Source: Bdellovibrio sp. ZAP7
GTDB lineage: Bacteria > Bdellovibrionota > Bdellovibrionia > Bdellovibrionales > Bdellovibrionaceae
DNA length: 64,000 nt
NCBI RefSeq assembly: GCF_006874645.1
Contig: NZ_CP030082.1
Coordinates: forward strand, 1,054,001-1,118,000
Direction of reading: 5' to 3'
The notes beneath the pieces are model-generated. The model had not been told where the DNA came from. It worked only from the letters and a program-made list of their open reading frames with translations, and did not search any database. The position numbers and the translations under genes are program-made. Below are positions 33,723-62,597 of the stretch, in pieces (position 1 is the stretch's first letter; every line of letters starts with the position of its first letter).

Positions 33723-34190
33723 TTGTACTGCCAGGGCATGTCAATCACCGACATATCTGCTCGTACTGGGATTAAGAGACATACTGTTTGGAAGACGCTT
33801 AAACAGCTTAAGAAAGAATCCAGCTCTGAAGTTTCAGTTCCTTATGACAGATGGCGTAAAGGTAAGAAGCGCACAGGGGCTCGACCACCATTTGGGTTTT
33901 GTATTTTGGAAGGGGAGCTTGTCCGTGACCCAAAAGAGTACCCAACACTTCTTTTGATTTTCAGTCTTTGGACCAAGGGGACATCAGTTACTTCCATCGT
34001 CAATCTGCTTGGGGAAAAGGGACTGCGATCGCGTACGGGTAAACAGTGGAGTTATCGAGTTGTTCAATCGATAACCGAAAGAATCGAATCAAAGGAATTG
34101 GTCATGATGCAAAGTAAGCTTTGGTTCTCAGATGAATATTTAAAGGGAATTAGTACAAATAGTAGAAATAAGCCATTCAAAAAAGAATGA
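33723..34190 (+). CDS. Serine-recombinase C-terminal tail, module 2
   Basis: The homologous frame is open from about 33540 and contains NGCPTP at about 33621, but no ATG start is present; the coordinates use a TTG (155 residues). The protein has the HTH GMSITDISARTGIKRHTVW, the PYDRWRKGKKRTGARPPFGF linker and the recombinase-like domain ending GLRSRTGKQWSYRVV. It lacks the catalytic resolvase domain. It is followed after 14 bases by the small membrane protein gene. Either it is a stable free-standing HTH protein or a 5'-truncated remnant. Confidence 0.6.
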   Translation: MYCQGMSITDISARTGIKRHTVWKTLKQLKKESSSEVSVPYDRWRKGKKRTGARPPFGFCILEGELVRDPKEYPTLLLIFSLWTKGTSVTSIVNLLGEKGLRSRTGKQWSYRVVQSITERIESKELVMMQSKLWFSDEYLKGISTNSRNKPFKKE

Positions 34191-35933: not shown

Positions 35934-36359
35934 TTAGTGGTGAGAGTGTTCGCTTTTGCTTTCTGTTTGGTTCTCGAACTTCAGAGGAAGTTTATAAACA
36001 GCATCGTTACCCACCGCTTTTTCGCGAACTGCTTTGATCACAATCTCACTGTCTTGCGAATATTTTTTAGTCGGAACACAATGAAAGTGATCTTGCATTA
36101 CGGTGCAATTAAAAGGAATTTGTACCTTTTTAGCGCGCGCAAAAACTTTGGCACTAGAATCTTTTGTTGTAGAATTCTGAAAATTCATATCTAAAAGATA
36201 AACATGTGCACTCTGATCTTTGTCTAAAACTAGTTCTGTATGAAAAGCTCCTGGCATTTCAATCTTGCCGCCGTGAGGACCAGGCTTGTCTCCACCATGT
36301 GCGCTTGCTAACGTAGGAGCCAGGGTGAGCGTCAGAATTAAGTGTCGAATAAAGTTCAT
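35934..36359 (-). CDS. Periplasmic His-rich protein of metal-efflux operon
   Basis: 141 residues with a signal peptide (ILTLTLAPTLASA) immediately followed by HGGDKPGPHGGKI. It ends in SEHSHH. The body is beta-strand-like. These N-terminal His-Gly blocks are typical of small periplasmic proteins in copper or cation efflux operons and suggest metal binding. It is the last gene of the leftward operon. Confidence 0.6.
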   Translation of the reverse strand: MNFIRHLILTLTLAPTLASAHGGDKPGPHGGKIEMPGAFHTELVLDKDQSAHVYLLDMNFQNSTTKDSSAKVFARAKKVQIPFNCTVMQDHFHCVPTKKYSQDSEIVIKAVREKAVGNDAVYKLPLKFENQTESKSEHSHH

Positions 36360-36372
36360 TGATTTCTCCTTT

Positions 36373-37605
36373 TTAGATAAGTTCAGTTATTTTCGCATTT
36401 ACTATTGTGATATCTCGTTCCAGCTCGATCATCCTGCGCTTTGCTTCGAATAAAGATACCGTGGCAGTTTGAAGATCCGGCGAGTTTTTGATTCCGCGCT
36501 TATATTCTGACAGTGTCATTTCGTAATACTTTTGGGCAAACATGAGTCTTTGTTGCTGATGTATTTTAAGCTTTGCTAGACTTTCTCTAGTAGTTAACAG
36601 GTTTCGTAAATCTTTTTCTATTTCGAGACGGGTGTTCTTTTTGTCAAACTGTTGAGTTGAAACTCCATAGTTTGTTGCTTGATGACGATAATAGCTTGAA
36701 AAGCCAGAAAAAAGATTCCAACTCAAAAGCAATGCGAACCTGGATTCTGTACCATTCAATGGATCTGAATACTCTGGAGTTATTCTGCCATAGCTAGCTT
36801 CGAGATCTAAGAACGGTAAAAACTCAGATCGTTGCTGAGTTACCTTCGCATGAGATATCTCTTCAAGTTGATCTTGTTTTTTAAGAGATGGATTGTTTTG
36901 AAGCGCCGTTTCAATATTTATTTCAATACTATTTATATCAAATGATTCTCGATCTGAAACTGAACTTTCAGAGATATTTAATCCTGTAAGTGTACTAAGC
37001 TCTTTGTTAAGTCGTTCTATTTCAGCTTTGATGGATTCGCGTTCATTCAAAATATTATTTTCTTCTAGATCAATCTCAATACTGTCGACGTTTGAAGTAA
37101 GTCCTGCATTAATTTTCTTCTGTGCCATCTGTCGTTGTTTATTTAAAAAATCAGATTTTTCATCAAGAATAGACAGGTTTTTTTTATTGGCAAGAAGACT
37201 ATAGTAAGTTTCGCGTAACTGACGACGAAGGGCGCGGGTTTTTACATCTAGGTCTAATTGTGCAATTTGGAACTCGCTATTAGAGATTGTCCTCAATGAG
37301 GAGTCTTCTCCTCCACGGTATAGATTCCATCGACCGCTCACGTAGCCTAGATATCCTTCGCTAGGTTCTTGAATGGTTTTATTTTCAGCGTATCCACCAT
37401 TTAAGGAAATTTGCGGAAGAAAATTTCCAAATTGAGATTGTGCCGTCGCTTTTTGCGCCTTCACCGTTGCTTCAAGCGAACGAATTTGCGGATTGGAAGA
37501 TAGCATTTGGGCTTCAAGGGAAGCCAAAGTTGATCCTTCCTTAGCAAATGCAGAAATAAAGACCAAAATGAATTGTGTAAAGATTAAAAGCGACGTCACC
37601 CTCAT
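36373..37605 (-). CDS. TolC-family outer membrane efflux protein (CusC/CzcC-like)
   Basis: 410 residues with a signal peptide. The body is long alpha-helical coiled coil with repeated Gln/Glu/Lys, the usual two-fold TolC repeat: LSWNLFSGFSSYYRHQATNY in the second half and GRWNLYRGGEDSSLRTIS in the first. It would form the outer-membrane channel for the RND pump encoded upstream at 38012-41149. A good ribosome binding site (GGAGAAG) precedes the start. Confidence 0.87.
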   Translation of the reverse strand: MRVTSLLIFTQFILVFISAFAKEGSTLASLEAQMLSSNPQIRSLEATVKAQKATAQSQFGNFLPQISLNGGYAENKTIQEPSEGYLGYVSGRWNLYRGGEDSSLRTISNSEFQIAQLDLDVKTRALRRQLRETYYSLLANKKNLSILDEKSDFLNKQRQMAQKKINAGLTSNVDSIEIDLEENNILNERESIKAEIERLNKELSTLTGLNISESSVSDRESFDINSIEINIETALQNNPSLKKQDQLEEISHAKVTQQRSEFLPFLDLEASYGRITPEYSDPLNGTESRFALLLSWNLFSGFSSYYRHQATNYGVSTQQFDKKNTRLEIEKDLRNLLTTRESLAKLKIHQQQRLMFAQKYYEMTLSEYKRGIKNSPDLQTATVSLFEAKRRMIELERDITIVNAKITELI

Positions 37606-37608
37606 AGA

Positions 37609-38010
37609 TTACTTCTCCAAAAGAAATTTAAAACTGTCGGTTTTGCCCGAGTGCTGTGCCTTGATATCAAGGTCAGCGCGATAGGCACCCTTAAGATCTA
37701 CTTTGGTTGCAAATGCTTTACCGTCATTGGTGAACGTCAAAGCCTGAGGTTTTCCTTTTGGCGTTTTTGCAGTTCCAGTTAACTTTACATCTGCAATTTT
37801 CAAATCTTCTCCAGAATGCGCTAACGGAAAGAATTGAATCGAGTCTCCGGAAACCAGCATTTCCATATTAATTTCTTTGCCAGCTTTGACGATTCCACCA
37901 TGTTGGGCTTTAATTTGGCCCGGGATTTCGTCATGGCCTTCGTGCGCGATTGAATTAACACCGAAAAATAAAATGCTAGATAGCGCGATCGTTAAAAACT
38001 GTTTGTTCAT
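37609..38010 (-). CDS. Small periplasmic protein between RND pump and TolC genes
   Basis: About 133 residues from the ATG at 38010, with AAGGAG inside the end of the pump gene. The signal peptide ends at SIA, then HEGHDEIPGQIKAQHGGIV. The mature domain (LVSGDSIQFFPLAHSGEDL ... YRADLDIKAQHSGK) is beta-rich. It occupies the place of a membrane fusion protein but is far too short, with no barrel-sandwich or hairpin domain recognisable. It may be a metal chaperone or substitute adaptor. Confidence 0.6.
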   Translation of the reverse strand: MNKQFLTIALSSILFFGVNSIAHEGHDEIPGQIKAQHGGIVKAGKEINMEMLVSGDSIQFFPLAHSGEDLKIADVKLTGTAKTPKGKPQALTFTNDGKAFATKVDLKGAYRADLDIKAQHSGKTDSFKFLLEK

Positions 38011-38011
38011 T

Positions 38012-41000
38012 TTAAGTCTCCTTTGATTCAAATATACTTACTTCATCCGTTGTCTTTAGGTATTTAAAAGCTGATTTCTTTCCAAAGTGATAAAAAACGG
38101 TCGGTGTGACAAACATATCTAGCAATGTGCTGCTAATCAAACCACCGACTATAACGACAGCGACGGGATGAAGAATTTCTTTTCCCGGTTCGCCTTTCGA
38201 AAGTACTAATGGAAGTAGGCCAAGAATGGCAGTGAGAGCGGTCATCAATACAGGAACCAGTCTTTCAAGTGAACCACGAATTACCATTTCCTTGGTAAAA
38301 CCTTCTCCTTCATGCTTCATAAGGTGAAGGTAGTGAGAGATCATCATTATGCCATTTCTAGAGGCGATTCCGCAAAGAGTTACAAATGCGACCAAGCTGG
38401 CAATGCTGATCGTTCCATCGGTTATTAAAATAGCTACCACGCCACCAATAAATGCCATTGGAATGTTCAACATAACTTGAAAAGAGATAAAACTACTCTT
38501 GAAGTGAGCGTACAGAATGACGAAAACTGAAATGACGGACAGGAAGCCTAAGAGAATCATTAATCGGGATGCTTGTTGTTGGCTTTCAAATTGTCCACCG
38601 TAATTAATGAAGTAGCCAGATGGGACTTCAACTTTATCTTTAATTTTAGATTGAATGTCAGCCATAACGCTTTCCAGATCCCGACCTGACGAATTAGCTT
38701 GGACGACGATACGCCGTTGAGCATTTTCTCTGTTAATAATATTTGGACCTGAAGTTTCATAGACGTCCGCTATCATTTCGACGCGAACTTTTGTTCCATC
38801 TGGAAGTGTTTTAAGAGGGGTTCGTTTAATAAGATCCAAGTTAGATCGAGATTTTTCATCAAATCTCATAAACGCATCTACAGTCTTTTGCCCCTCGAGA
38901 ATTTGACCAACCACTTCTCCCTGAAGAGCTTTTTCTAAAAGCTGTGCTAAATCTCCTACAGAAACACCAAACTTAGAGGCTTCATCTCTCAAAAGTTGAA
39001 CCTTGACTTGAGGAATTAAAACCTGCTGTTCGATTTGTAAATCGACTAACCCTGGCACGTCTTTTAAAGACTGTTGAACTTCGCTGGCCTTTGCGCGAAG
39101 TGTGGAAAGATCTGGTCCAAAGATTTTTATAGCGATTTGCGCCCGGACGCCCGATAAAAGGTGATCTAGTCGATGAGATATAGGCTGCCCAACATTAACC
39201 GCAACGCCTTGAAGTTCAGATAAATTTCTACGAATTTCGGTAAGCACTTGATTTCTGGGGCGTCCCTCTTCCTTAAAGTCGACATCAATTTCAGAGTAGT
39301 GAACGCCCTCTGCGTGCTCATCTTGCTCGGCGCGCCCAGTTCTACGTGACACAGAAGTTACTTCCGGACTTTTCATGATTAATTCTTCTGCTTTTTTGCC
39401 AAGACGATCTGATTCCTCAAGAGAAATTCCCGGAGTAGCAACTACTGTTATAGTCGCCGTGCCTTCATTGAAATGAGGTAGGAAGTCTCTGCCAATGAAT
39501 GTGGTTAGAAAAACTGCGCAAATAAACAAGGCAGTTGTTACGCCTAAAATAATTTTTGGATGTGCTAAGGATCGGTTAAGAATCTGAGTGTCCCATTGCT
39601 TAAGCTTTCGAACTAAAGCGCCGTCCTTGTGTTCTAAGAGTTCGCCTTTTGATAATAGGTATGAACACAGAACTGGCGTCACAGTGAGAGAAATGATCAT
39701 CGAAGCCAGAAGTGAAATAATATATGAAATCCCGAGAGGCGCGAAAAGCCGACCCTCGATTCCTCCCATGCTGAAAAGTGGAACGAAAACTAAACAGACA
39801 ATAAGAGTTGCAATTACAATTGAATTTCTGACTTCACTAGATGCTTCGAAAATAACTTTGAGCGTATTCTTTGGTTTTGCGAGCAACTTATTTTCGCGAA
39901 GTCTGCGGTATACATTTTCGACGTCAACGATAGCGTCATCAACGAGCTCGCCAATTGCGACGGCGAGTCCCCCAAGTGTCATGGTGTTGACGGAAAGTCC
40001 GAATATTTTAAAAACGATAGCTGTTAAAACAAATGAAAGAGGAATCGCCGTCATAGTTATAGCCGTCGTTCGCAAATTCATCAGAAATAATAAAAGCACA
40101 ATCAGAACGAGAATGACGCCGTCACGAAGAGCCTCTTTAACGTTATGGATCGAGTTTTCGATAAAGCGAGATTGTTTAAAGAGGTCGAGCTCAATTTTGA
40201 CTCCTTTGGGTAGGCCTATCGAGAGTTCCTTTAATGCTTTATCTATATCTTTCGTTAAATCAATTGTGCTTGCGCCAGGTTGTTTTTGAATGGTCATGAT
40301 AACTGAAGCCTTGCCATTTACACTGGCATCTCCTCGTTTGACCTGCGGCCCTTCTTGAACTTCCGCAATATCTTTTACTCGGACGGGTCTGCCTAGGTGC
40401 ATGCCCACAAAAGAATTTTGAATGTCATCTAGACTGCGAACTGCCCCAAGGTTTCTAATCAAATACTCCTGAGCGCCAATATTTATGAAGCCGCCGGTGG
40501 AATTAATACTAAGATCTGAAAGATTGTGTTCGATATCATCTAGGGCTAACTGAAATTTTTGAATTTTTTCGGCTGAGATAAGAATTTGAAATTGTCTCAC
40601 GCCTCCGCCAATTGCGATTACCTGCGTAACTCCTGGGATACTCATGAGGCGAGGGCGCAATGTCCAATCTGCGATCGTTCTCAACTCAAGTGGACTGACG
40701 GTGCCATCTGGAGAACTAAGACCAATAAGCTGTATTTCTCCCATGATCGAGGCGATCGGTCCCATAATAGGTGTCGCATTTTTTGGAAGCTTTTCTTTAG
40801 CTAGAGCTATTTTCTCTTGGACCATTTGTCTATTGCGGTAGATATCTGTTCCCCAGTCAAACTCGATATAAATAACACTTAATCCGACTGCAGAACTGGA
40901 GCGAACTCGCTGTACCCCGGGAAGACCATTCAGTGCGGTTTCAAGGGGAAACGTCACCAAGGTTTCAACCTCTTCGGGGGCAAGGCCAGGGGCCTCGGTC

Positions 41001-41149
41001 ATGATATTTACTGTGGGTCTATTTAAATCTGGGAAAACATCCACCGGAAGAGTTATTAGAGCCCATACTCCGTACACCAAAACTAATGCCGTGAAAGCAA
41101 TAACAAGCAGTCTATGAGTCAGGGCATATTTTATGACTTTATCGAGCAT
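38012..41149 (-). CDS. Heavy-metal efflux RND pump (CzcA/CusA family)
   Basis: 1045 residues, the usual length. The start LDKVIKYALTHRLLVIAFT, TLPVDVFPDLNRPTVNIMTE and, in transmembrane helix 4, AVAIGELVDDAIVDVENVYR identify the HME-RND group; this TM4 signature is distinct from the czcA-type gene at 57.2 kb. Two large periplasmic loops and 12 membrane helices are evident. It is transcribed divergently from csoR-copA, which suggests copper or a similar ion as substrate. No full-length adaptor gene is in this operon. Confidence 0.88.
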   Translation of the reverse strand: MLDKVIKYALTHRLLVIAFTALVLVYGVWALITLPVDVFPDLNRPTVNIMTEAPGLAPEEVETLVTFPLETALNGLPGVQRVRSSSAVGLSVIYIEFDWGTDIYRNRQMVQEKIALAKEKLPKNATPIMGPIASIMGEIQLIGLSSPDGTVSPLELRTIADWTLRPRLMSIPGVTQVIAIGGGVRQFQILISAEKIQKFQLALDDIEHNLSDLSINSTGGFINIGAQEYLIRNLGAVRSLDDIQNSFVGMHLGRPVRVKDIAEVQEGPQVKRGDASVNGKASVIMTIQKQPGASTIDLTKDIDKALKELSIGLPKGVKIELDLFKQSRFIENSIHNVKEALRDGVILVLIVLLLFLMNLRTTAITMTAIPLSFVLTAIVFKIFGLSVNTMTLGGLAVAIGELVDDAIVDVENVYRRLRENKLLAKPKNTLKVIFEASSEVRNSIVIATLIVCLVFVPLFSMGGIEGRLFAPLGISYIISLLASMIISLTVTPVLCSYLLSKGELLEHKDGALVRKLKQWDTQILNRSLAHPKIILGVTTALFICAVFLTTFIGRDFLPHFNEGTATITVVATPGISLEESDRLGKKAEELIMKSPEVTSVSRRTGRAEQDEHAEGVHYSEIDVDFKEEGRPRNQVLTEIRRNLSELQGVAVNVGQPISHRLDHLLSGVRAQIAIKIFGPDLSTLRAKASEVQQSLKDVPGLVDLQIEQQVLIPQVKVQLLRDEASKFGVSVGDLAQLLEKALQGEVVGQILEGQKTVDAFMRFDEKSRSNLDLIKRTPLKTLPDGTKVRVEMIADVYETSGPNIINRENAQRRIVVQANSSGRDLESVMADIQSKIKDKVEVPSGYFINYGGQFESQQQASRLMILLGFLSVISVFVILYAHFKSSFISFQVMLNIPMAFIGGVVAILITDGTISIASLVAFVTLCGIASRNGIMMISHYLHLMKHEGEGFTKEMVIRGSLERLVPVLMTALTAILGLLPLVLSKGEPGKEILHPVAVVIVGGLISSTLLDMFVTPTVFYHFGKKSAFKYLKTTDEVSIFESKET

Positions 41150-46682: not shown

Positions 46683-48360
46683 TGATGCTCTGGGAATACT
46701 TCCGCGCTCTAATAACCCTGAGGAAACCGGGATAAGATCCGGTCGATGGAATTACACAGCTGTTCGCGATATTCTTGTAAACCCAGCGTATGTTGGTCTG
46801 AAGGAAGTAAATAAAAAGAACAAGGGCAAAGATCCTGAGATGTTAAAGCCTTGGCAGCAATATCAAGTGGTAAAAGCTTCTTGGCCTGAAATTATCGAAA
46901 AGAAAGTTTTTGATCAAGTTCAAGAGATTCTAGAGGAGAATGCAAAGTTTGAACGTAGAAAGTTGGAAGAGGCCGAAAGACGTGTCTTCCTGTTATCTGG
47001 AATTCTCCGCTGTGGAAAGTGCGGACGGCCTCTTAATGGACAGTCGGCACATGGAGAAAAGGAAGTTCATAGATATTATGCTCATTCTTATAAAAGAGGG
47101 AGTTCAAATGCGTGTTCATTTAAAAGAGTAAGGGCTGATGAAATCGAGGATGTTGTGATTAGCTATCTTACAAATGTCATTTCCCGAGCTGGATATATGA
47201 ACGGTATAGAAGCGAACCTAAGATCAATCGCGAATGAAACTCCCGAAAATGTTGCGGATCAGATTGCAAAGGTCAAAAGTGCACTCGCTGAGGTGGAGGC
47301 TGAAATCAAGGCGACATTTAAATTACAACTTAAAGCTTCCCCAGGTACCGAGGCGGCTCAGTTGGCGGTTGAACATCTAGAAGTTCTCGGTAAGAAAAAG
47401 AAACAGTTGAACTCTGTATTAGGTAGCCTCAGTGAGCAAGAAGAGACCGTGATTGATACTAAAGGAATATTAAGAGCGATCCAAAACCGCGTTGCCGAGT
47501 TCAAAAAGGGCTTTCCTAAAGCAAACGCGTTTCTGAAGAGACGTCTACTACGAAAAGTTCTCAAAGAACTTGTTCTAACAGATCAAGGCCTCGAAACGGC
47601 CTTTAATGTCGATCTCACTAATCCGAATCAGGTTATGGATGATTCAATGTCTTACGAACATGGAAAGCTTCTTCAATTTAAAAATAAAAGAGTAATGGCT
47701 GATATCGAAAACAGACCACCAGAAATGCCCCTTCGGGCTACTGGGTCTGATTTTATTCCGTCGTTTGATTTATTGCTTAATGATGGAAATGGATGCCTGA
47801 TCGGTGGAATGCGCAAATCCGACATCGCCCATGATATTATTAAGGTTTTTTCAATCTGGAAGCCATCAATTTATGAAGTAGCGGCCCCTTTATATCAAAA
47901 AGGCCTCTCCATTACCGAGATCGCAAATGAGACCGGACTTAAGAGAACTGCCATCTGGGAAGCTCTCAAGAGCAAGCGCGACGAACTGCATCCAAAAGCC
48001 CCAATTCCTTACGAGCGTTGGCGCAAAGGTCATAAGCGAACAGGGGCGAAGCCTCCCTATGGCTTTTGCTTTCTTCAAGGCGAGGTGGTCCATCACCCCA
48101 ATGAGTACCCAACACTTCTTTTGATCCATAACCTATGGACTAGAGGCAGCGACATCATGTCCATTCTGGCGGCGTTAAGTGTCAAGCGGCTTAAGTCTCG
48201 AACGGGTAGGGACTGGAGTTATGGCGTCATTAAAGCCATCATAAAACGCATCGACGCTGGTGCAATTGTCCTTCGCTCGAGAAAGCTAGTTCTTTCAGAG
48301 GACTTTCTAAAGGGAATGTCTTCACAACAAAATTCATCAACTAAAAAGAAAAAGAGGTAA
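46621..48360 (+). pseudogene. Large serine recombinase lacking its catalytic domain, with duplicated-type C-terminal domain
   Basis: The frame opens after a TAA at 46618-46620, immediately inside the recombinase domain (KIFDVFLKEGTIGKTL ... RWNYTAVRDILVNPAYVG). It continues with a zinc ribbon (LRCGKCGRPLNG ... SSNACSF), a coiled coil, then a second unit: the HTH GLSITEIANETGLKRTAIW and a second recombinase-like domain (PPYGFCFLQGEVVHHPNEYP ... RLKSRTGRDWSYGVI). The resolvase catalytic domain with its nucleophilic Ser is absent. An ATG at 46840 could start a 506-residue product. The last ~200 residues are homologous to the modules at 3.5 and 33.6 kb. Confidence 0.75.
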
Positions 48361-52542: not shown

Positions 52543-52956
52543 ATGCATGTTATAACTATTGAGCCTCACCAACTTTTCCAATCCCTTTCCGATCTTACTC
52601 GTTTAAGAGTTGTAAGACTTTTGGCTTCGTCTAAGGAAGTGGCATGTCTTTGTGAACTTTCGCAATGTCTGGGGGAGCCAGAATATAAGCTGTCACGCCA
52701 CCTAAAACAATTGCGTCAAAGCGGTCTTCTATCTGCTGAGAAGGAAGGGCGATGGATTTATCATAGTATTCCATCGGCGGAAATAGACCTTCAGGCTCTG
52801 TTTAAGTTCATTTCTAAAATTCCGGATTCCAGCGGAGTTTTTGCCGAAGATTTGAAGCGATTCCAAAAATGTATTGCAGCTCGGAAGGGTGGACGATGCA
52901 TTATTGCTCCGAGCGAAATTTTTCCACAGAAAAAAACGAAGAAAGTAAGAGCCTGA
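52543..52956 (+). CDS. ArsR/SmtB-family metal sensor 2
   Basis: About 137 residues from the internal ATG (an upstream TTG is open at 52513). HQLFQSLSDLTRLRVVRLL, then ACLCELSQCL, a Cys-rich recognition-helix site as in ArsR/CadC, and YKLSRHLKQLRQSGLL. The gene ends 5 bases before the FTR1-like permease gene and probably regulates it. Confidence 0.85.
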   Translation: MHVITIEPHQLFQSLSDLTRLRVVRLLASSKEVACLCELSQCLGEPEYKLSRHLKQLRQSGLLSAEKEGRWIYHSIPSAEIDLQALFKFISKIPDSSGVFAEDLKRFQKCIAARKGGRCIIAPSEIFPQKKTKKVRA

Positions 52957-52961
52957 AATTT

Positions 52962-54875
52962 ATGAAACAATATTTGTCATTGATGGTTTTCATCACGTTA
53001 TTCGGTTTCTTCAATCTCAAAGCAGCGGTTGCCGACGAAGTGAAAAATCCTTCCATTGTTGTGCACCTTCTAGACTATCTTGCAAAAGATTACGGTGGGG
53101 CCGTTAGGAACGGAAAAGTCTTAAGTAAATCGGAATATCAAGAACAAGTTGAGTTCTCTGAAATTGTCGGAAAGGCTTCAAGAGCCTACGACGAATACAA
53201 ACATGACGTTGCTTTTGTTGTTGGCGTAGATAACTTAGTTTTAAAAATTAAAAATAAGGCAAGTGCCGACGAAGTTTCAAAGCTAGCCAGAGAGCTTCAG
53301 ACCAATGCAATTTCATTGGCAAAAATAGAAATTGCGCCTCAAGATTATCCTTTAGTTTCAGAGGGACAAAAAATCTTTGCTCAAAACTGCGCTTCTTGCC
53401 ACGGAAGTTCTGGAATGGGTGATGGTCTCGCAGGGCAGGCACTTAATCCAAAACCCGCAAACTTCCACGAGTCAGAGCGACAATTTGCAAGCTCTCCCTT
53501 CCAGTATTTTAATACAATCCGTTTGGGAGTTCCTGGAACTGCTATGCCGCCATTCCCGTCATTATCTGACAAAGAGATCTGGTCCTTAGCTTTCTTTGTG
53601 AAATCACTTGGATATCAAAAGCCAGAAGGCAAGCTGTCTACGGAGTTGTCGTTAAAGCAAGTTTCCTCTCTTAAAGATGAAGAAATTCTGAAATCACTAA
53701 CAGGTAGTGAAGTTGAAAGAAAACAAATTTTAGCGTTGATTCGCACTTTTGAACCGGCCCCCAAAGAAGGGTCGCAGTTTTTGGCTATTGCTAGAACCCA
53801 TTTAAATCAAAGTTATGATCATTTCAACAGAGGTGAATATGAGCTTGCAACCTCAGAATCTGTAAAGTCTTATCTGCAGGGAATTGAGCCAATTGAACCC
53901 AAGATTAAAGCCAATCAAGCTGGTCTTGTTGAAAAAATTGAGGCGCAAATGAGCGCCTATCGTAACTCTCTTAATGCCGCCACAGCTAAAGATATCGCAT
54001 CAAAAAATTATCAGTCGATAATGTCGACTTTTACAGAAATTCAAAATGTTACTGAAGCAAAAATGATGTCTCCTCAATTAGCGTTTACGGCTGCTTTTGC
54101 TATTTTCTTAAGAGAAGGATTTGAAGCAGTACTGATCATTATCACTTTGCTTGGCGTGATAAAAGCCTTTGGTGCAAAAGAAGCGGCAAAGTGGGTTCAT
54201 TTTGGTTGGATCAGTGCTTTGGCACTTGGTGCAGTCGTATGGTTCGCTTCTGGTCTTCTTTTGAATATGAGCGGCGCAAGTCGTGAAATCATGGAGGGAA
54301 GTATTTCTCTCTTTGCCGTAGTCGTACTTCTGTATGTTGGATTTTGGCTTCATAGACAAACTGAGGTTGGCAGATGGACGAAGTTCGTAAGAGAAACTCT
54401 AAAGGAAGCTCTTGAAAAGAAAAGTCTCATTGTTCTTAGTAGTATTTCTTTTATGGCCGTATTTAGAGAGGCCTTCGAGGTAGTTCTCTTTTTAAGAGCT
54501 ATTTGGAATGATGTGAATGCAGATGGAAGAGCCTCTGTCGGTGAAGGTGTTGCTCTTGCGTTTATCTTAATTTTTGCCTTTTCATATTATGCCGTTAGAT
54601 ACAGTCAGAAGATTCCGATAAAACAATTATTCAATGTTTCCGCTGCGATCATGGGAATTCTCTCCGTAATTCTAGTTGGAAAAGGAATTCACTCTCTTCA
54701 AGAGGCAGGTATTGTAGGTGTTAAGTCCATTGGTCTTGGTTTGAGGGTCGACTTGCTGGGTATTTTCCCTTCGATTCAAACGGTAGTTGCGCAACTTTTA
54801 ATAGCCGCTGTTTTGCTCATTATCTGGAGTCTGGGAAAGAAACCTGCGGCTGCGCCTTTAGGCGAGACTGCATAG
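52962..54875 (+). CDS. Cytochrome c-FTR1 permease, PbrT-like
   Basis: About 637 residues with a signal peptide (LMVFITLFGFFNLKAAVA). A periplasmic domain follows with a c-type haem site CASCHG near residue 145 and a distal Met in GVPGTAMPPFPSL. The C-terminal half has seven membrane helices of the FTR1 family with two REGFEAVLII / REAFEVVLFL motifs. This architecture and length match PbrT-type lead (or iron) uptake proteins. The ArsR gene upstream and nearby Zn/Cd/Pb ATPase support a heavy-metal role; high-affinity iron uptake is the alternative. Confidence 0.8.
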   Translation: MKQYLSLMVFITLFGFFNLKAAVADEVKNPSIVVHLLDYLAKDYGGAVRNGKVLSKSEYQEQVEFSEIVGKASRAYDEYKHDVAFVVGVDNLVLKIKNKASADEVSKLARELQTNAISLAKIEIAPQDYPLVSEGQKIFAQNCASCHGSSGMGDGLAGQALNPKPANFHESERQFASSPFQYFNTIRLGVPGTAMPPFPSLSDKEIWSLAFFVKSLGYQKPEGKLSTELSLKQVSSLKDEEILKSLTGSEVERKQILALIRTFEPAPKEGSQFLAIARTHLNQSYDHFNRGEYELATSESVKSYLQGIEPIEPKIKANQAGLVEKIEAQMSAYRNSLNAATAKDIASKNYQSIMSTFTEIQNVTEAKMMSPQLAFTAAFAIFLREGFEAVLIIITLLGVIKAFGAKEAAKWVHFGWISALALGAVVWFASGLLLNMSGASREIMEGSISLFAVVVLLYVGFWLHRQTEVGRWTKFVRETLKEALEKKSLIVLSSISFMAVFREAFEVVLFLRAIWNDVNADGRASVGEGVALAFILIFAFSYYAVRYSQKIPIKQLFNVSAAIMGILSVILVGKGIHSLQEAGIVGVKSIGLGLRVDLLGIFPSIQTVVAQLLIAAVLLIIWSLGKKPAAAPLGETA

Positions 54876-55036
54876 ACTTTGGGGGAAGTAGTTTTTACGG
54901 GTCTATGCAAATGACTTGCATTGAATTGAGAAAAAGGAATGTTCTTTAATATTCGTATCTAATTTAATGTTCGCCTTGAACTTTGATATTGTAATTGGAT
55001 TTGAGATAGAGCTATATTTTGAGAGTGTATAACAAT

Positions 55037-55369
55037 ATGAAAGCGTTAATTTTTTGGACAGTTGCACTTTCGTTAGTTTCCGTTCTTGTCGGGAACTATT
55101 TGTCTTTTCATATTGATAGCGATGATATTCCAAAAATTTCAGCTCACAATTCGCAGATTCTTAAGTCAAAATTAGATTCCACTCAGGAACATAATTTTGA
55201 CCCTTGCAATCAAGGGCATTGTCACTTGGGGCACTGTGCTGTAGTTCTGTTGCCTCTTAGTTCTGAGGCTATTGATCGGTTAGCATATTTGATTGTTTAC
55301 AGTTCAAAAGAATTCTTTTTTATAAGTCGTTTTCTTGAGGGGCCTTTTCAGCCTCCACGACTTGTCTAA
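55037..55369 (+). CDS. Small Cys/His-rich protein ahead of the efflux operon
   Basis: About 110 residues from the ATG at 55037. A membrane-anchoring N-terminus (ALIFWTVALSLVSVLVG) is followed by PCNQGHCHLGHC, a probable metal site, and a C-terminus FQPPRLV. Small proteins of this form often precede czc/cus TolC genes. A periplasmic location is inferred. Confidence 0.6.
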   Translation: MKALIFWTVALSLVSVLVGNYLSFHIDSDDIPKISAHNSQILKSKLDSTQEHNFDPCNQGHCHLGHCAVVLLPLSSEAIDRLAYLIVYSSKEFFFISRFLEGPFQPPRLV

Positions 55370-55423: not shown

Positions 55424-56662
55424 ATGTCTTTTATGGCAAAGGTTATACCCATGATTCTAGTTATGTCTTTTGCATCAGCGGAAGAGTCAGAACCATGTGT
55501 TGTATTATCTAATTATAAGCAAATTACTTTATGTGCAGAAAGTCGATCTCCTGAAGTTCTCAGAGCTGAATCAGAAGTCAAACAAAGGAAAGCCTCTGTG
55601 GATGCAGCCGGGCAACTTTTAAATCCGGAATTGTCAATGCAGACCATATCCGGTTCCGTGCAGTCAGAAACAAAATCTGAAACTGACGTATCGTTGGCAT
55701 TCCCAATTGAATTGGGAGGCAAAAGATCCTCAAGAAAAAGCATTGCGACCGGGGCACTTTCGAAGGCAGAGCTGGAACTCTTCAATGCAAAAGCAGAAGT
55801 AAGAAAGTCTGTTCTTTTAAAAATCGTAAGACTCCGTCAAATTGATCATGAACTTGATTTGGTCGACGAATCTGCTGAGACATTTAGCAAGCTAGTAAAA
55901 CAGTATGAGTCGCGTCCAACCCTGAGTCCGGAGCAAGAGGTTACACTGACTGTTTTTCGCGTAGCAAAGGGTGAGTATGGCTTTAAGAGAATGGAATATG
56001 ATGAGGAACTTGCTCAACTTGAATCGTTTTTTAAAATTGTGATCGGAAAAGACTTAGCAAGTGTTCGTAAGGTTCTGCCCCCGCGAATTTCGTCCATGCC
56101 TCTGGTGCCCGGTGAAAATAAAGAGGTTGATAAATCACCACTGCTCGGATTGTTAGATGCCGACATAAAAATTGCAAACGCGGAACGGGATCGCACATTC
56201 GGAGATGCTTGGCCCACATTGAACTTAGGGCCTTCCGCAAAATTTTCGAAAGAAGGAAGCCAAAGCTTTGAACAATGGGGACTAAATTTGAGCATGCCTC
56301 TTCCTGTGTTGAGTCTCAATCAAGGAGCGAAGGCGGCGGCGAGTGCTGGAGTTCGTTCCTCGGAAATAAGACGGGAAACCGCACTAAAGGAATTGATTGC
56401 TCGCAGGACCTCTCTAGTTGAGATCTACAAAAAATCTGCGAAAGCTCTGGAGGAAACTCCTAATGGACACACGTTGGAAAGTAAGCATAAGAAAGTTGAA
56501 ACTTTGTTTGTTAAAGGCTTGGTACCTAGTTCATTGGTCATCGAGGCCCACCGCTCTTTAGTGGAGTTTGAGAAAACTAGAAATAATCGAGAGATCAAAG
56601 CAGTAGAGGCGATCCTGGAAATTCAAATTATTGATGGTCAGGAAGTGGAGTTAAGCCTATGA
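55424..56662 (+). CDS. czcC: TolC-family outer membrane protein (CzcC-like)
   Basis: 412 residues. Signal peptide MILVMSFASA, then helical coiled-coil repeats with GQLLNPELSMQTISGS and DAWPTLNLGPSAKF. It would be the outer-membrane exit duct for the CzcA-type pump at 57241. Its stop overlaps the start of the next gene (ATGA), so the order is C-B-A. Confidence 0.85.
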   Translation: MSFMAKVIPMILVMSFASAEESEPCVVLSNYKQITLCAESRSPEVLRAESEVKQRKASVDAAGQLLNPELSMQTISGSVQSETKSETDVSLAFPIELGGKRSSRKSIATGALSKAELELFNAKAEVRKSVLLKIVRLRQIDHELDLVDESAETFSKLVKQYESRPTLSPEQEVTLTVFRVAKGEYGFKRMEYDEELAQLESFFKIVIGKDLASVRKVLPPRISSMPLVPGENKEVDKSPLLGLLDADIKIANAERDRTFGDAWPTLNLGPSAKFSKEGSQSFEQWGLNLSMPLPVLSLNQGAKAAASAGVRSSEIRRETALKELIARRTSLVEIYKKSAKALEETPNGHTLESKHKKVETLFVKGLVPSSLVIEAHRSLVEFEKTRNNREIKAVEAILEIQIIDGQEVELSL

Positions 56663-57231
56663 AGAAGATATTTATTTTGGCAGCGGCTTTAATTATAGGA
56701 TTGAAAATTTCAAGCGCATTTGCCGATTTGGAAAAGAATAAAAAGGTTCCGAACGAGGCAATTCATGCTGAACATGATTCGAGTCATGACGGTGACGCAG
56801 ATAAAAAAGATGAGAAGCCTGACCGCAGTGAAAAAGCTGAAGAATACGGACATGGTGAGCGTGAGGAAGAAGGTTCTAATGTTGGACCGGACAAAGGGAT
56901 CACTGTTGCGGATGAGCATGACGGCATCAAACTTTCCGATGAAGCAGAAAAGAATTTTGAACTGAAGATAATGACTCTTATAGGGAACGCTTCTTGGGAA
57001 GTTCCTGTGAGTGCCCTTCTTACCTCAGGTGAAGAGATCAATATCTACCGAGTAAGAAACGGGTTTTACAAGCGCATTGACTTCGATCTAATTTCAAAAA
57101 ATGCCACTCATATGAAAATCAGTTCAAAAGACCTCGCTAAAGGTGACGGCGTTGTCACGAGCGGTGTGGGCTTTTTGAGAACAGCAGAACTTGCAGCGTC
57201 TGGCGGGGCTTCAGAAGAGCACGGCCACTAA
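56659..57231 (+). CDS. Reduced CzcB-like adaptor protein
   Basis: 190 residues against about 350-520 for CzcB. The signal peptide is followed by a very charged His/Asp/Glu/Lys linker. The remaining ~90 residues resemble the C-terminal membrane-proximal domain of adaptors (IKLSDEAEKNFELKIMTL, then DLAKGDGVVTSGVGFL), ending EEHGH. The barrel-sandwich/lipoyl and hairpin domains are missing. It may still link pump and duct, or only bind metal. Confidence 0.65.
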   Translation: MKKIFILAAALIIGLKISSAFADLEKNKKVPNEAIHAEHDSSHDGDADKKDEKPDRSEKAEEYGHGEREEEGSNVGPDKGITVADEHDGIKLSDEAEKNFELKIMTLIGNASWEVPVSALLTSGEEINIYRVRNGFYKRIDFDLISKNATHMKISSKDLAKGDGVVTSGVGFLRTAELAASGGASEEHGH

Positions 57232-57240
57232 GGATAATTT

Positions 57241-60200
57241 ATGATTAATAAGATAATACATTTTTCTGTATATAACAGGGCTCTGGTGCTTTTATTTACC
57301 GTCATGCTTGCAATAGCGGGTATCTATTCGTTTCAGCATCTTCCGATTGATGCGGTTCCAGATATTACTAATAATCAAGTTCAGATCAATACTACCATTG
57401 AGGGTTTAGCTCCTGAAGAAATTGAAAGATCAATTACCTTTCCCGTAGAGTCTTCGATGAGGGGGATTGCCGGGGTTCTAGAGGTTCGGTCTATCACTCG
57501 CTTCGGGCTATCTCAAGTAACCGTGGTATTCAAGGACTCAGTGGAAGTATATCGCGCTCGACAAATGGTGACGGAGCGACTTCAAGGAGTCCTCGCCGGA
57601 CTTCCTAAAGGCGCCGAGGCTAGATTAGGGCCGATTTCTACTGGGCTTGGAGAGATCTTTCAGTATGCACTCGATTATGAAAAACCAGCAAAAAATTCAG
57701 CGGATCGCTTAAAGCAGTTGATGGAGCTTAAAGCTCTACAAGATTGGTTTATCAAGCCAAGACTTCTAACTGTTGAAGGTGTAGCTGAAATAAACACCAC
57801 GGGTGGTTATGAAAAGCAATTTCACGTGCAGCCCGATATCGGCAAAATGGCATCTTATGGAGTTCACTTCGAACAAATTGTGGAGGCTCTTGAAAAAGTG
57901 AACAGGAATGTGGGCGGTGGAGCCATCGCTCAAACTGCGGAGCAGTTTCTGGTACAAGGTGTCGGCCTCTTTAAAAATGCACAGGACATAGAAAAGGTAC
58001 CAGTGAAGCAACTGGATTCATTTAGGGTCATTCGCGTTGGTGATATCGCAAAAGTGAAGTTGGGAAAAGAACTAAGGACCGGAGCGGCGACTTATAATGG
58101 TCAAGAGACCGTTCTGGGTACTGTGATGATGCTTTTGGGTGAGAACAGCAGGACAGTCGCCACAAGAGTCAAAGATAAGGTCGATGAGATTAAAAAGACG
58201 TTGCCCCCAGGGATCGTGATGACCACGGTGTATAACCGTTCGGATTTAGTGAATGCGACTCTTGGTACCGTAGAGCACAATCTGATCTTAGGTGCGACAC
58301 TTGTAATTGTGATTTTATTCCTGCTAATCGGAAACATCCGTGCTGCTGTCATTACTGCCATCACGATTCCATTATCGTTGTTAGCTACATTTCTAATTAT
58401 GAAACCACTTGGGATTTCCGGAAACCTCATGAGCCTTGGTGCTCTTGATTTCGGTATCATTGTGGATGGAACGGTCATTCTAATTGATAACTGTGTCCGC
58501 TATGTGCATGAACGAAGTAAGGAGTTTGATCGAAAGCTAACCAGAGCTGAGGTTCAGGCCGCTGTCTATGAAGCTGCAGTCGAAGTTCGTGTTGCAGCAG
58601 GTTTTGGAGAGCTAATAGTTGTCGTCGTGTTTTTGCCAATTTTTGCGCTTACTGGTGTTGAAGGAAAAATGTTTGCGCCGATGGCGGCGACCTTTGCAAT
58701 CGCTGTCGCATCCGCATTGATTTTGTCATTTACAACGGCACCGGCATTGGCGTCTTTGATTCTTCAGGGAAATGCAGAAGATAAAGAACCTAAATTTATG
58801 GAGTGGATACGCAAAGCTTATAAACCACTGTTTGATCTGACCTTTAGGCATCGCGTTGCAACTCTTACTTCCGCACTTATAGCTGTGATTGCTGGAGCAA
58901 TTTTATTTGCGACAAGAGGAGCGGAGTTTTTACCGCAACTAAGCGAGGGGTCTTTCGCTTTTCATATGATTCGTCCTGTAAATTTAAGTTTGGATCAATC
59001 CATTGCTTTTCAGTTAAAAGCAGATCAAATCATTAAAACTTTTCCCGAAGTAGACAAAGTTTTTGCGCGCATTGGAACTAGTGAGGTCGCAACTGACCCT
59101 ATGGGAGTAAATATCTCTGACACCTATATCATGTTAAAGGACAAGTCAGACTGGCCAAAAACAAATAGCGACAAGAAGCATACTTACGAAACGTTAGTTA
59201 GTGCTATCGTTGCGCGGCTAGAGAAAGGCCTGCCAGGGCAAAGCTATTTGGCTTCTCAGCCAATTCAAATGCGCTTTAATGAGCTTTTAGAAGGAACCAG
59301 GGCCGACGTATCTGTGAAAGTCTTTGGTCCAAATCTTCAGACAAATATGGATTTAGCGAAAAAGATTCAAGAGATTGTTTCCAAAGTAAGAGGTGCTGGG
59401 GATGTCGAAGTTGACCTTGCAGGCACGAGTCCAGTCTTGCGGATAGAACCAAATGAAGAGGCACTCAGAAAATATGGCGCAAATATTTCAGATGTACTTA
59501 ATACGATCTCTATCGCACTGGGTGGACAGGAGAGTGGTTATCTTTATGAAAATGAAAGAAAGTATCCAATTGTTGTTCGTCTTAATGACGAAGAGCGTTC
59601 TGATTTAAGGACAATTAGAAATCTTCCTGTAGGATTGGGCACAAACGTCACCACGCCGCTTTCAAATTTAGCGACATCCAAGTTTTCTGAGACTTTCGGT
59701 TCAATCAATCGAGAAGATTCGAATCGTCGCTCAGCGGTACTTATTAATTTGCGGGGACGGGATACAGAGAGTTTCGTAAATGAAGCGCAAAAAATGGTTG
59801 AGCAGCAAATTGAATTGCCACAGGGATATTATGTCCAGTGGGGTGGAAACTTTAAAAACCTTCAAGAAGCAAGAAGTAGGCTGTTATTGCTGACGCCGAT
59901 TGCACTGATGTTGGCATTGCTCATGATCTATGCGGCATTTAGAAGTGTGGGCCAAACCATATTGATTTTCTCGTGCATCCCATTTGCTTTGGTCGGCGGA
60001 GTTGTTGGACTTATTGCTAATGGATTACCATTTAGTATTTCAGCAGGCGTTGGATTCATCGCATTGTCTGGTATTGCAGTTTTAAATGGCGTTGTGCTTG
60101 TGAATTACTTCAATCAGTTAAAGAACCAAGGAAAAACAGGAAAAGATCTTGTGATGAAGGGGACAATGATTCGTTTGCGTCCTGTTCTGATGACAGCACT

Positions 60201-60381
60201 GGTGGCTATTTTTGGCTTTTTGCCAATGATGCTCTCGACTGGCATTGGTGCAGAAGTTCAAAGGCCTTTAGCGTCTGTCGTCATAGGTGGCATTGTCTCG
60301 TCAACAATTTTGACTCTTCTTGTTTTACCCACTCTTTACTCAATTTTTGAGAAGAAATTTGTCGGAAGAGTTGCTCACTAA
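57241..60381 (+). CDS. czcA: Heavy-metal efflux RND pump, CzcA type
   Basis: 1046 residues. IDAVPDITNNQVQINTTIEG near the start and, in TM4, LDFGIIVDGTVILIDNCVRY match the HME1/HME3 divalent-cation pattern (Asp-Phe-Gly...Asp-Gly). Twelve membrane helices and two large periplasmic loops are evident. It exports Zn/Co/Cd-type ions by family knowledge. It is immediately followed, after 11 bases, by the P-type ATPase, a common pairing of cytoplasmic and periplasmic detoxification. Confidence 0.88.
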   Translation: MINKIIHFSVYNRALVLLFTVMLAIAGIYSFQHLPIDAVPDITNNQVQINTTIEGLAPEEIERSITFPVESSMRGIAGVLEVRSITRFGLSQVTVVFKDSVEVYRARQMVTERLQGVLAGLPKGAEARLGPISTGLGEIFQYALDYEKPAKNSADRLKQLMELKALQDWFIKPRLLTVEGVAEINTTGGYEKQFHVQPDIGKMASYGVHFEQIVEALEKVNRNVGGGAIAQTAEQFLVQGVGLFKNAQDIEKVPVKQLDSFRVIRVGDIAKVKLGKELRTGAATYNGQETVLGTVMMLLGENSRTVATRVKDKVDEIKKTLPPGIVMTTVYNRSDLVNATLGTVEHNLILGATLVIVILFLLIGNIRAAVITAITIPLSLLATFLIMKPLGISGNLMSLGALDFGIIVDGTVILIDNCVRYVHERSKEFDRKLTRAEVQAAVYEAAVEVRVAAGFGELIVVVVFLPIFALTGVEGKMFAPMAATFAIAVASALILSFTTAPALASLILQGNAEDKEPKFMEWIRKAYKPLFDLTFRHRVATLTSALIAVIAGAILFATRGAEFLPQLSEGSFAFHMIRPVNLSLDQSIAFQLKADQIIKTFPEVDKVFARIGTSEVATDPMGVNISDTYIMLKDKSDWPKTNSDKKHTYETLVSAIVARLEKGLPGQSYLASQPIQMRFNELLEGTRADVSVKVFGPNLQTNMDLAKKIQEIVSKVRGAGDVEVDLAGTSPVLRIEPNEEALRKYGANISDVLNTISIALGGQESGYLYENERKYPIVVRLNDEERSDLRTIRNLPVGLGTNVTTPLSNLATSKFSETFGSINREDSNRRSAVLINLRGRDTESFVNEAQKMVEQQIELPQGYYVQWGGNFKNLQEARSRLLLLTPIALMLALLMIYAAFRSVGQTILIFSCIPFALVGGVVGLIANGLPFSISAGVGFIALSGIAVLNGVVLVNYFNQLKNQGKTGKDLVMKGTMIRLRPVLMTALVAIFGFLPMMLSTGIGAEVQRPLASVVIGGIVSSTILTLLVLPTLYSIFEKKFVGRVAH

Positions 60382-60392
60382 GGAGATTTGCT

Positions 60393-62597
60393 ATGGAAAA
60401 TAAACCCTCTAATTGCTGTAGTTCAAAGAATACGTGTTCTGATACCACTCCGATAAATGGAAGTGGTGATGTGCCGTCGAATGCTAAAGAATCCGTTTTT
60501 AAAGTTAGCGGAATGGACTGCGCCGATGAGATTGCGGCGATTAAAAATTCTTTGGATTTAGATAAAGTATTTCGGGTGGAGGCGAATCTGATGTCCTCTA
60601 CTGTTCACGTCTGGCATTCACCAGATTTTGAAGGAAGTGAGATACAAAATTTCATCAATAAGTCTGGAGTGAAGGTTATTGCCTCTGATGCGAAGAAAAG
60701 GGCAATTCCTTTGCAGAGAGTCGCCCTGGTTTCAGCGTCCGGAACTTTGGTAGGTGCGGTTATATTGGTCAATTTTGCTTTATCCGCTCAGAACCCGTTT
60801 GTTGTTATTCTAAGTCTAGCGTCAATTCTTTGCGGAGGGATTTTGGTTTTTCCAAAAGCTTTCCGAGCTGTAAAACAGGGTCATTTAGATATGAATGTCT
60901 TAATGACTGTCGCAGTTTTAGGGGCAATCTATCTTCGCGATTATATTGAAGCAGCCACCGTGGTATTCTTGTTCGCTTTTTCAGAACTTTTGGAAACGAT
61001 CAGTGTGGTAAGGGCTCGGAAAGCAATTCAAGAAGTTATCAATATTAGCCCTAAAACTGCTTTGCTGAAGAGCGCAGATGGCATCGTTCAGTCTGTGATG
61101 GTGGAATCTCTGAAGATTGGCGATGTGGTTGTCGTTAGGCCAGGCGATCTTTTTCCTATTGATGGCGTTCTTGCAGTTGGTGAAACCGAGGTCAATCAGG
61201 CGCCATTAACGGGCGAATCTACTCCTATTAAAAAGACCGTGGGAGATAGTGTATTTGCTGGAACCGTGAATATTTCTGGAGTCGCCGAAGTAAAAGTCAT
61301 CAAAGGATTCAAAGATTCAAAAGTATCGCAAATAATACGAATGGTGGAAGATGCGCAAAAGAGTAAAGCACCTTCTCAAAGATTTGTAGATCAGTTTGCC
61401 AGAATTTATACACCTGCTGTATTTATCTTAGGCTTATTGATTTGTCTTGTGCCTCCGTTGCTATTTGGCGGTGCATGGAACGAATGGATTTACAAGGCAC
61501 TGGTTCTTTTAGTGATTGCCTGCCCTTGTGCTTTGGTGATTTCGACGCCAGTTTCTGTTGTTTCTGGATTGACAGCAATGGCGCGCCGAGGAGTTTTGGT
61601 TAAGGGAGGAGTATTCTTAGAGACCCTTGGGAAACTCAAAGCTCTTGCTGTTGATAAAACGGGTACAATTACTGAAGGTGTCCCTCAGGTTGTTTCACTT
61701 AAGAAGTGGAATAGCATTGATGAAAAAGAAATTGTTAGAATAGCTGTATCAATTGAGAAACTTTCTTCTCATCCTTTAGCTGAGGCGATAGTTCGATATG
61801 CTGAAAAAATTGGAGTTTCCCCTGATAATATCGAAAAGTCACAAAATGTGCAGGGTAGAGGAGTATTTGCAACTCTTGATGGACACGATTATTTCCTTGG
61901 TAATCATCGATTTACACATGAACTTGGAGTGTGTAGTCAAGAGTTGGAGGAGTATCTTCGAACTCTTGAAGAGCAAGCTTTGTCGGTGATTGTGGTGGGG
62001 CACCAACCCCATGACAATTGTGATGGAGAAGTGCTTGGTGTTTTCGGAGTAGGTGATAAGGTTCGAGAAAATGCCAAGGCAGCCATTCAGAAGATACATC
62101 AGGCTGGATGTAGAACTATTGTCATGCTGAGCGGAGACAACAACCGAACTGTCGAAACAATATCAAAACAAGTGGGAATTGATCAGGTATTTGGTGAGTT
62201 ACTTCCTGAAGGCAAAGTTGAAAAGGTGAAGGAGCTTGTTAGCAAGTACCAATATGTAGGGATGGTAGGGGATGGTATCAATGATGCTCCAGCGTTGGCT
62301 CAGGCCTCCATTGGAATTGCAATGGGCGCCATCGGTACAGATGCAGCAATTGAGACGGCTGATGTGGCATTAATGAAAGATGACCTTGAACAGCTCTCAA
62401 TCGCCATTTCTCAGGGGAAAAGAACCCTGGGCATCATACGATTTAATATTGTGTTTGCGCTTGCATTGAAGGCGGTATTTCTGATCTTAGCCCTGCTTGG
62501 GTATTCAAGTATGTGGATGGCGATTGCTGCTGATACCGGAGCAACTCTAGTAGTGATTTTGAATGCGCTAAGGCTTTTGAAAATTAGTTCACAATAG
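60393..62597 (+). CDS. Zn/Cd/Pb-translocating P1B-type ATPase (CadA/ZntA-like)
   Basis: 734 residues. N-terminal Cys-rich patch (NCCSSKNTCSD) and an HMA domain with GMDCADEI. CPCALVISTPVSVVSG in TM6 (the P1B-2 CPC followed by Val-Ile-Ser-Thr), DKTGTITEG, SHPLAEA and GDGINDAPALA. The C-terminal membrane helix ends MAIAADTGATLVVILNALRL, typical of the Zn/Cd/Pb class. It is part of the czc-like operon. Confidence 0.9.
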   Translation: MENKPSNCCSSKNTCSDTTPINGSGDVPSNAKESVFKVSGMDCADEIAAIKNSLDLDKVFRVEANLMSSTVHVWHSPDFEGSEIQNFINKSGVKVIASDAKKRAIPLQRVALVSASGTLVGAVILVNFALSAQNPFVVILSLASILCGGILVFPKAFRAVKQGHLDMNVLMTVAVLGAIYLRDYIEAATVVFLFAFSELLETISVVRARKAIQEVINISPKTALLKSADGIVQSVMVESLKIGDVVVVRPGDLFPIDGVLAVGETEVNQAPLTGESTPIKKTVGDSVFAGTVNISGVAEVKVIKGFKDSKVSQIIRMVEDAQKSKAPSQRFVDQFARIYTPAVFILGLLICLVPPLLFGGAWNEWIYKALVLLVIACPCALVISTPVSVVSGLTAMARRGVLVKGGVFLETLGKLKALAVDKTGTITEGVPQVVSLKKWNSIDEKEIVRIAVSIEKLSSHPLAEAIVRYAEKIGVSPDNIEKSQNVQGRGVFATLDGHDYFLGNHRFTHELGVCSQELEEYLRTLEEQALSVIVVGHQPHDNCDGEVLGVFGVGDKVRENAKAAIQKIHQAGCRTIVMLSGDNNRTVETISKQVGIDQVFGELLPEGKVEKVKELVSKYQYVGMVGDGINDAPALAQASIGIAMGAIGTDAAIETADVALMKDDLEQLSIAISQGKRTLGIIRFNIVFALALKAVFLILALLGYSSMWMAIAADTGATLVVILNALRLLKISSQ

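Follow-up and report, generated by a model that had tools for sequence, protein, structure and literature searches.

A Czc-type efflux operon of Bdellovibrio whose adaptor appears reduced to the membrane-proximal domain

How an adaptor joins an RND pump to TolC, by deep interpenetration or tip to tip, is a long-running question, and it is raised again by a Czc-type operon of Bdellovibrio sp. ZAP7 in which the gene in the czcB position encodes a protein of 190 residues. The operon lies in a stretch of 64,000 nucleotides (contig NZ_CP030082.1, positions 1,054,001 to 1,118,000), hereafter called the window, to which coordinates refer unless otherwise stated. What such a short adaptor retains, whether it is a remnant, and how its pump could reach the outer-membrane channel are the questions considered here.

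All the genes of the locus are on the plus strand. The gene at 55424..56662 encodes a complete TolC/CusC-type outer-membrane factor of 412 aa in the CzcC position (Pfam OEP, E 1.5e-18; pLDDT of the AF2 model 86.5). Its stop overlaps by four bases the ATG start of the adaptor ORF (56659..57231), which ends nine bases before the start of a complete CzcA-type HME-RND permease of 1046 aa (57241..60381); the adaptor gene thus shares an operon with TolC and CzcA. The permease scored 1241.6 bits against TIGR00914 over positions 1-1038 of 1051 (cut-off 701.45 bits), and therefore passes as a full-length CzcA-type permease. On its 3' side, a Zn/Cd/Pb-type P1B ATPase (60393..62597) exceeded the cut-off of TIGR01525 with 580.8 bits, while its 594.5 bits against PRK11033 were below the cut-off of that model. 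From the CzcA subfamily and the adjoining ATPase, we infer a pump for divalent metals (zinc/cobalt/cadmium) of the CzcCBA type. Upstream of the TolC gene, a small Cys/His-containing protein without a significant Pfam family (55019..55369) occupies a position that in most relatives is held by a small gene of about 100-145 aa, and is putatively CzcI-like by this position. A second such operon, with an adaptor of 147 aa, is present in the same genome at 957 kb. Elsewhere in the window, a predicted fusion of a c-type cytochrome with an FTR1 iron permease domain is encoded at 52869-54875. Two recombinase-like ORFs (46840-48360 and 33723-34190), whose C-terminal parts look alike by eye, lie beside metal genes, suggesting a mobile metal-resistance island.

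The adaptor begins with a putative signal peptide (residues 1-22, 56659..56724), recognized by eye and helical at residues 3-17 in the model (DSSP). It is followed by a linker rich in His, Asp, Glu and Lys (residues 23-86, 56725..56916), with low pLDDT over most of its length. In relatives, this linker ranges from near 0 to about 180 aa and accounts for most of the length variation among short adaptors, those of 128-134 aa being almost devoid of it; its composition would be that of a possible metal-gathering tail. The remainder corresponds to the membrane-proximal domain (MPD) of RND adaptors, which is built from two segments. The first (residues 87-107, 'HDGIKLSDEAEKNFELKIMTL', 56917..56979; pLDDT > 90) was identified by hhalign, residues 87-105 matching the first MPD segment of full-length CzcB (CzcB 187-205) with E 2.2e-5. 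The second (residues 112-180, 56992..57198) was located by profile, hhalign and structure, and residues 103-190 matched the last 83 residues of CzcB, i.e. the C-terminal MPD segment and the His tail, with E 8e-7. It should be noted that these pairwise E-values are those of single comparisons rather than of a database search, and that whole-length hhalign recovered the N-terminal segment only, the C-terminal one requiring a cropped template. The tail itself, GGASEEHGH (57199..57228), is equivalent to GKAGASHDH of CzcB, and reads GGAPEGHSH in most close relatives.

The NCBIfam model RND_mfp (TIGR01730) matched residues 112-174 at profile positions 252-314 of 322 (E 4.6e-5), but with 22.5 bits against a curated cut-off of 94.9 bits. 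Judged from its sequence, the adaptor is therefore a descendant of the RND adaptor family, yet one that the TIGR01730 model would not call. Among 14 short relatives, RND_mfp matched seven (best E 8.8e-11) and the CzcB/NccB model TIGR00999 two (best E 8.2e-7), and none of the 14 matched HlyD_D23. Searches of PDB sequences by phmmer and by profile returned nothing significant for the short adaptor.

A structural model of the adaptor, obtained with AF2 from 18 related sequences, showed pLDDT mostly > 90 over residues 81-180 and low values over the linker. VIA-align superposed it on CusB (3NE5 chain C) with Z 11.4 and rmsd 2.5, followed by ZneB (Z 10.2) and BesA (Z 8.8), while unrelated folds began at Z 3.2. 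The 96 aligned residues extend over CusB 79-397, a span of more than 300 residues, which is what joining the two halves of the MPD and removing everything between them would produce. When aligned together with longer adaptors, the short proteins were seen to retain a charged region at the N-terminus, the first strand and helix of the MPD, its C-terminal segment and the tail, but no beta-barrel, lipoyl or hairpin domain. Profile, hhalign and structural matches thus all identify an MPD, while not a single residue for the beta-barrel and lipoyl domains is found between its halves, and the helix pair of the TolC-contacting alpha-helical hairpin is absent from both model and alignment (the hairpin does not strictly define RND adaptors, as BesA is also devoid of it). 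Nor could the missing domains be hidden elsewhere in the operon, in a different frame or a different gene, as 55424-60381 leaves no room for them. On sequence and model evidence, the adaptor is a complete bipartite MPD from which some 190-270 residues have gone, comprising the beta-barrel, the lipoyl domain and, in comparison with homologues that possess it, the hairpin. An earlier note on this DNA had described a charged linker and a C-terminal adaptor-like domain only; the ORF of 190 aa and its match to TIGR01730 agree with that description, which nonetheless overlooked the first MPD segment.

The partners of the adaptor show no sign of a similar reduction. The model of the TolC-like protein has the complete TolC/CusC fold (VIA-align Z 27.4 with TolC and 24.2 with CusC), and its two tip loops (modelled at about 164-169 and 364-368), which bear the clade signatures 'LSPEQ' and 'GLVPSSLVIEAHR', fall within the most conserved segments of the protein. 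Alignment to proteobacterial relatives showed that, close to the second tip loop, one of two acidic positions has been lost and the other kept as Glu; these positions would correspond to the gate aspartates of TolC. In CzcA, the relative conservation of the docking domain was 0.96 (DN) and 0.82 (DC), compared with 0.89 and 0.85 in those pumps whose adaptors are longer, with domain limits that are approximate and set by analogy to AcrB. Relative to the whole protein, the docking domain is thus about as conserved by sequence as in longer-adaptor pumps, and is not relaxed; trimer assembly, in which this domain takes part, would be a further reason for its conservation. Together, the conserved TolC tips and the unrelaxed docking domain agree with direct docking of TolC on CzcA, although they fall short of proof.

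Six operons of one clade of the same phylum (L102-L107) go further, in that the TolC gene is followed directly by the CzcA gene in a two-gene operon, and no adaptor gene was found up- or downstream (the downstream side was covered in five of these operons). In the CzcA tree, these pumps nest among those with short adaptors, beside one with an adaptor of 128 aa, and the adaptor gene has therefore probably been lost in this clade. The same genomes have other adaptor-family genes elsewhere. That the adaptor-less operons keep TolC is consistent with a link to TolC that can do without the adaptor. The CzcAs with a short or no adaptor formed one clade apart from the proteobacterial CzcAs with an SH-aLRT of 99, in a tree with two outgroup rows and with the rows of L036 and L109 labelled 'short' by default; when all 86 were placed against 14 outgroups, the FastTree support for the clade was 0.71.

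The reading that we favour, on balance and with some reserve, is that evolution has produced a minimal pump: the MPD would cap CzcA, the linker would collect metal and TolC would dock on CzcA itself. The ancestor shared by the pumps of Bdellovibrionota would have had a secreted adaptor cut down to a metal-binding linker and one MPD. Several copies of the MPD would sit on the porter domain of CzcA, as the MPD of CusB does on CusA, while the His/Asp/Glu-rich linker and tail would deliver periplasmic divalent metal to CzcA. The TolC trimer would then dock through its conserved tip loops straight on the CzcA docking domain, with no adaptor tube in between. Current tip-to-tip models require such a tube between pump and TolC, and this counts against direct docking. 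A similar inference has been drawn for a hairpin-less adaptor in the published discussion of BesA (PMC3807786, PMC4446572).

A different possibility is that the pump does not span the envelope at all. CzcA and the MPD protein would then move metal from the cytoplasm or the inner leaflet into the periplasm, or load metal, with the small protein acting as a metallochaperone or as an activator of CzcA, and TolC would work separately or with another pump. Such an arrangement would account for the absence from the operon of any domain that could form an adaptor tube, for a linker and tail rich in His, Asp and Glu, and for the existence of operons without any adaptor. However, the TolC gene adjoins the short gene in nearly all the operons surveyed, usually with the same four-base overlap, the TolC protein is of full length with conserved tips, the docking domain of CzcA is not relaxed, and TolC is retained even in the adaptor-less operons; we therefore regard a non-spanning pump as unlikely. 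As a separate observation, three operons (L113, L150 and L151) contain an extra ORF of 130-160 aa between TolC and the short adaptor.

The copper operon (35934-41149, minus strand), which the earlier note had taken for a second operon with a minimal adaptor, encodes no adaptor of any kind. It is flanked by stand-alone small proteins, both on the minus strand. One of them (37612-38013) resembles the N-terminal 'GPHGG' metal-binding domain of CzcB, and not the MPD (30-sequence profile, hhalign probability 95%, E 2.3e-8), and is of a type found in 43 of 66 genomes of the family; the other (35937-36359) shows the same motif by eye. A third operon, at and past the end of the window, encodes, with CusA, a CusB of 330 aa (L012:5793-6782, minus strand, just beyond that end), composed of an N-terminal heavy-metal-binding (HMBD) motif, an MPD and part of the beta-barrel. 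Because it matches the barrel-sandwich model at positions 148-205 of 214 only, this CusB also appears to be devoid of the lipoyl domain and hairpin, and its relatives in the family are mostly of 270-336 aa. With a reduced CusB and a copper operon lacking an adaptor, this genome shows reduction on a broader scale than had been proposed, and in different forms.

Adaptors can be common to several pumps, and the genome has other adaptor-family proteins, so that another adaptor, or an unrecognised protein, might supply the bridging domains in trans. Nevertheless, the other adaptors whose context was read adjoin their own MFS or ABC transporters, CusB, the only other HME adaptor near by, lacks the lipoyl domain and hairpin as well, and no other adaptor was found beside the adaptor-less operons, so that supply in trans seems improbable, even more so than a pump confined to the inner membrane side.

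In every one of the 78 readable operons of the CzcA clade across the phylum, the adaptor is short (126-290 aa, median 173.5), and a full-length one occurs in none of them, a count that omits L036 (at a contig end) and L109 (with a scrambled upstream region). Within the same family, a short gene precedes every CzcA whose upstream DNA is readable, and the short relatives from many families of the phylum have the same boundaries and mostly the same kind of tail. Profile A1 detected short-adaptor genes in 130 of the 369 genomes that represent the phylum. Although most genomes of the phylum are drafts or were assembled from metagenomes, complete chromosomes, that of the window among them, show the pattern as well. 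A contig scan with profile A2, which distant short adaptors elsewhere could escape, gave 18 loci, all from Bdellovibrionota except one in an unclassified MAG (L094), which encodes exactly the same protein as a genome of the family (L033). No plasmid match was obtained by tblastn with the short protein as query. As judged from substitution rates, the short adaptors are under purifying selection, dN being far below dS (itself saturated) in the pairs tested. Decay of czcB, known from the plasmids of Candidatus Manganitrophus (L082, L211), where the gene is either interrupted by a frameshift or broken into several fragments, can be rejected here as highly improbable, given short genes with the same boundaries and mostly the same tail type in 78 of 78 readable relatives of many families, dN far below dS, and intact CzcA and TolC. 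The suggestion that this is a lineage-specific simplified pump, for which full-length genes in relatives would have been fatal, is thus supported.

These data suggest that, in the Czc-type pumps of the phylum, the connection to the outer-membrane channel is made without the part that normally bridges the gap. It may even be, although we advance this more tentatively, that in envelope-spanning metal pumps of Bdellovibrionota TolC stands directly on the RND transporter, the adaptor having become a one-domain cap that was then lost in one clade; if so, neither the hairpin nor an adaptor tube would be essential to tripartite efflux. With a phylum of MPD-only adaptors and an adaptor-less clade, related CzcA pumps offer a graded natural series (full, hairpin-less, MPD-only and none), through which one can test directly what a working pump needs at the least. 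The series also suggests that, of all parts of the adaptor, the MPD is lost last.

In the literature searched, which left most subscription journals out of reach, we found no description of a short CzcB in Bdellovibrio. CzcB/NccB (TIGR00999; plasmids of Thauera and Pseudomonas) shares with the short adaptor its place between TolC and CzcA, a His/Asp-rich N-terminal region, both MPD segments and the C-terminal His tail, but has between the MPD halves the 190-270 residues that the latter lacks. On plasmids from outside the phylum, the operons of the nearest CzcAs (47-49% identity) are likewise arranged TolC-adaptor-CzcA, and their adaptors are longer, at 316-536 aa (Legionella fallonii 416 aa, Thauera 529 aa, Nitrobacter IhpB 316 aa); in Thauera, Nitrobacter and Manganitrophus, a P-II-like gene stands between adaptor and CzcA. 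IhpB and the related HME adaptors of Nitrobacter, Legionella and Alteromonas plasmids (L081, L163, L164, L165) resemble the present system in operon order, CzcA type and absence of the hairpin in the alignment, their lipoyl halves being joined by a short loop, but at 316-416 aa they keep the beta-barrel and lipoyl domains. CusB (PDB 3NE5) and ZneB (3LNN) share the MPD fold and have four domains each, against one in the short adaptor. A SilB construct with the N-terminal metal site and MPD (PDB 5A4G; Z 5.8) has a similar domain set, but is a laboratory derivative of a full-length adaptor, whereas the short adaptor is natural. The closest precedent is BesA of Borrelia burgdorferi, a naturally reduced adaptor of an RND pump with a TolC homologue, for which recruitment of TolC in some other way has been inferred (PMC3807786), and which has been described as possibly the greatest difficulty for the tip-to-tip model (PMC4446572). 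BesA, however, is devoid of the hairpin alone and keeps the beta-barrel and lipoyl domains, while the short adaptor lacks these as well, belongs to a metal pump and is found phylum-wide.
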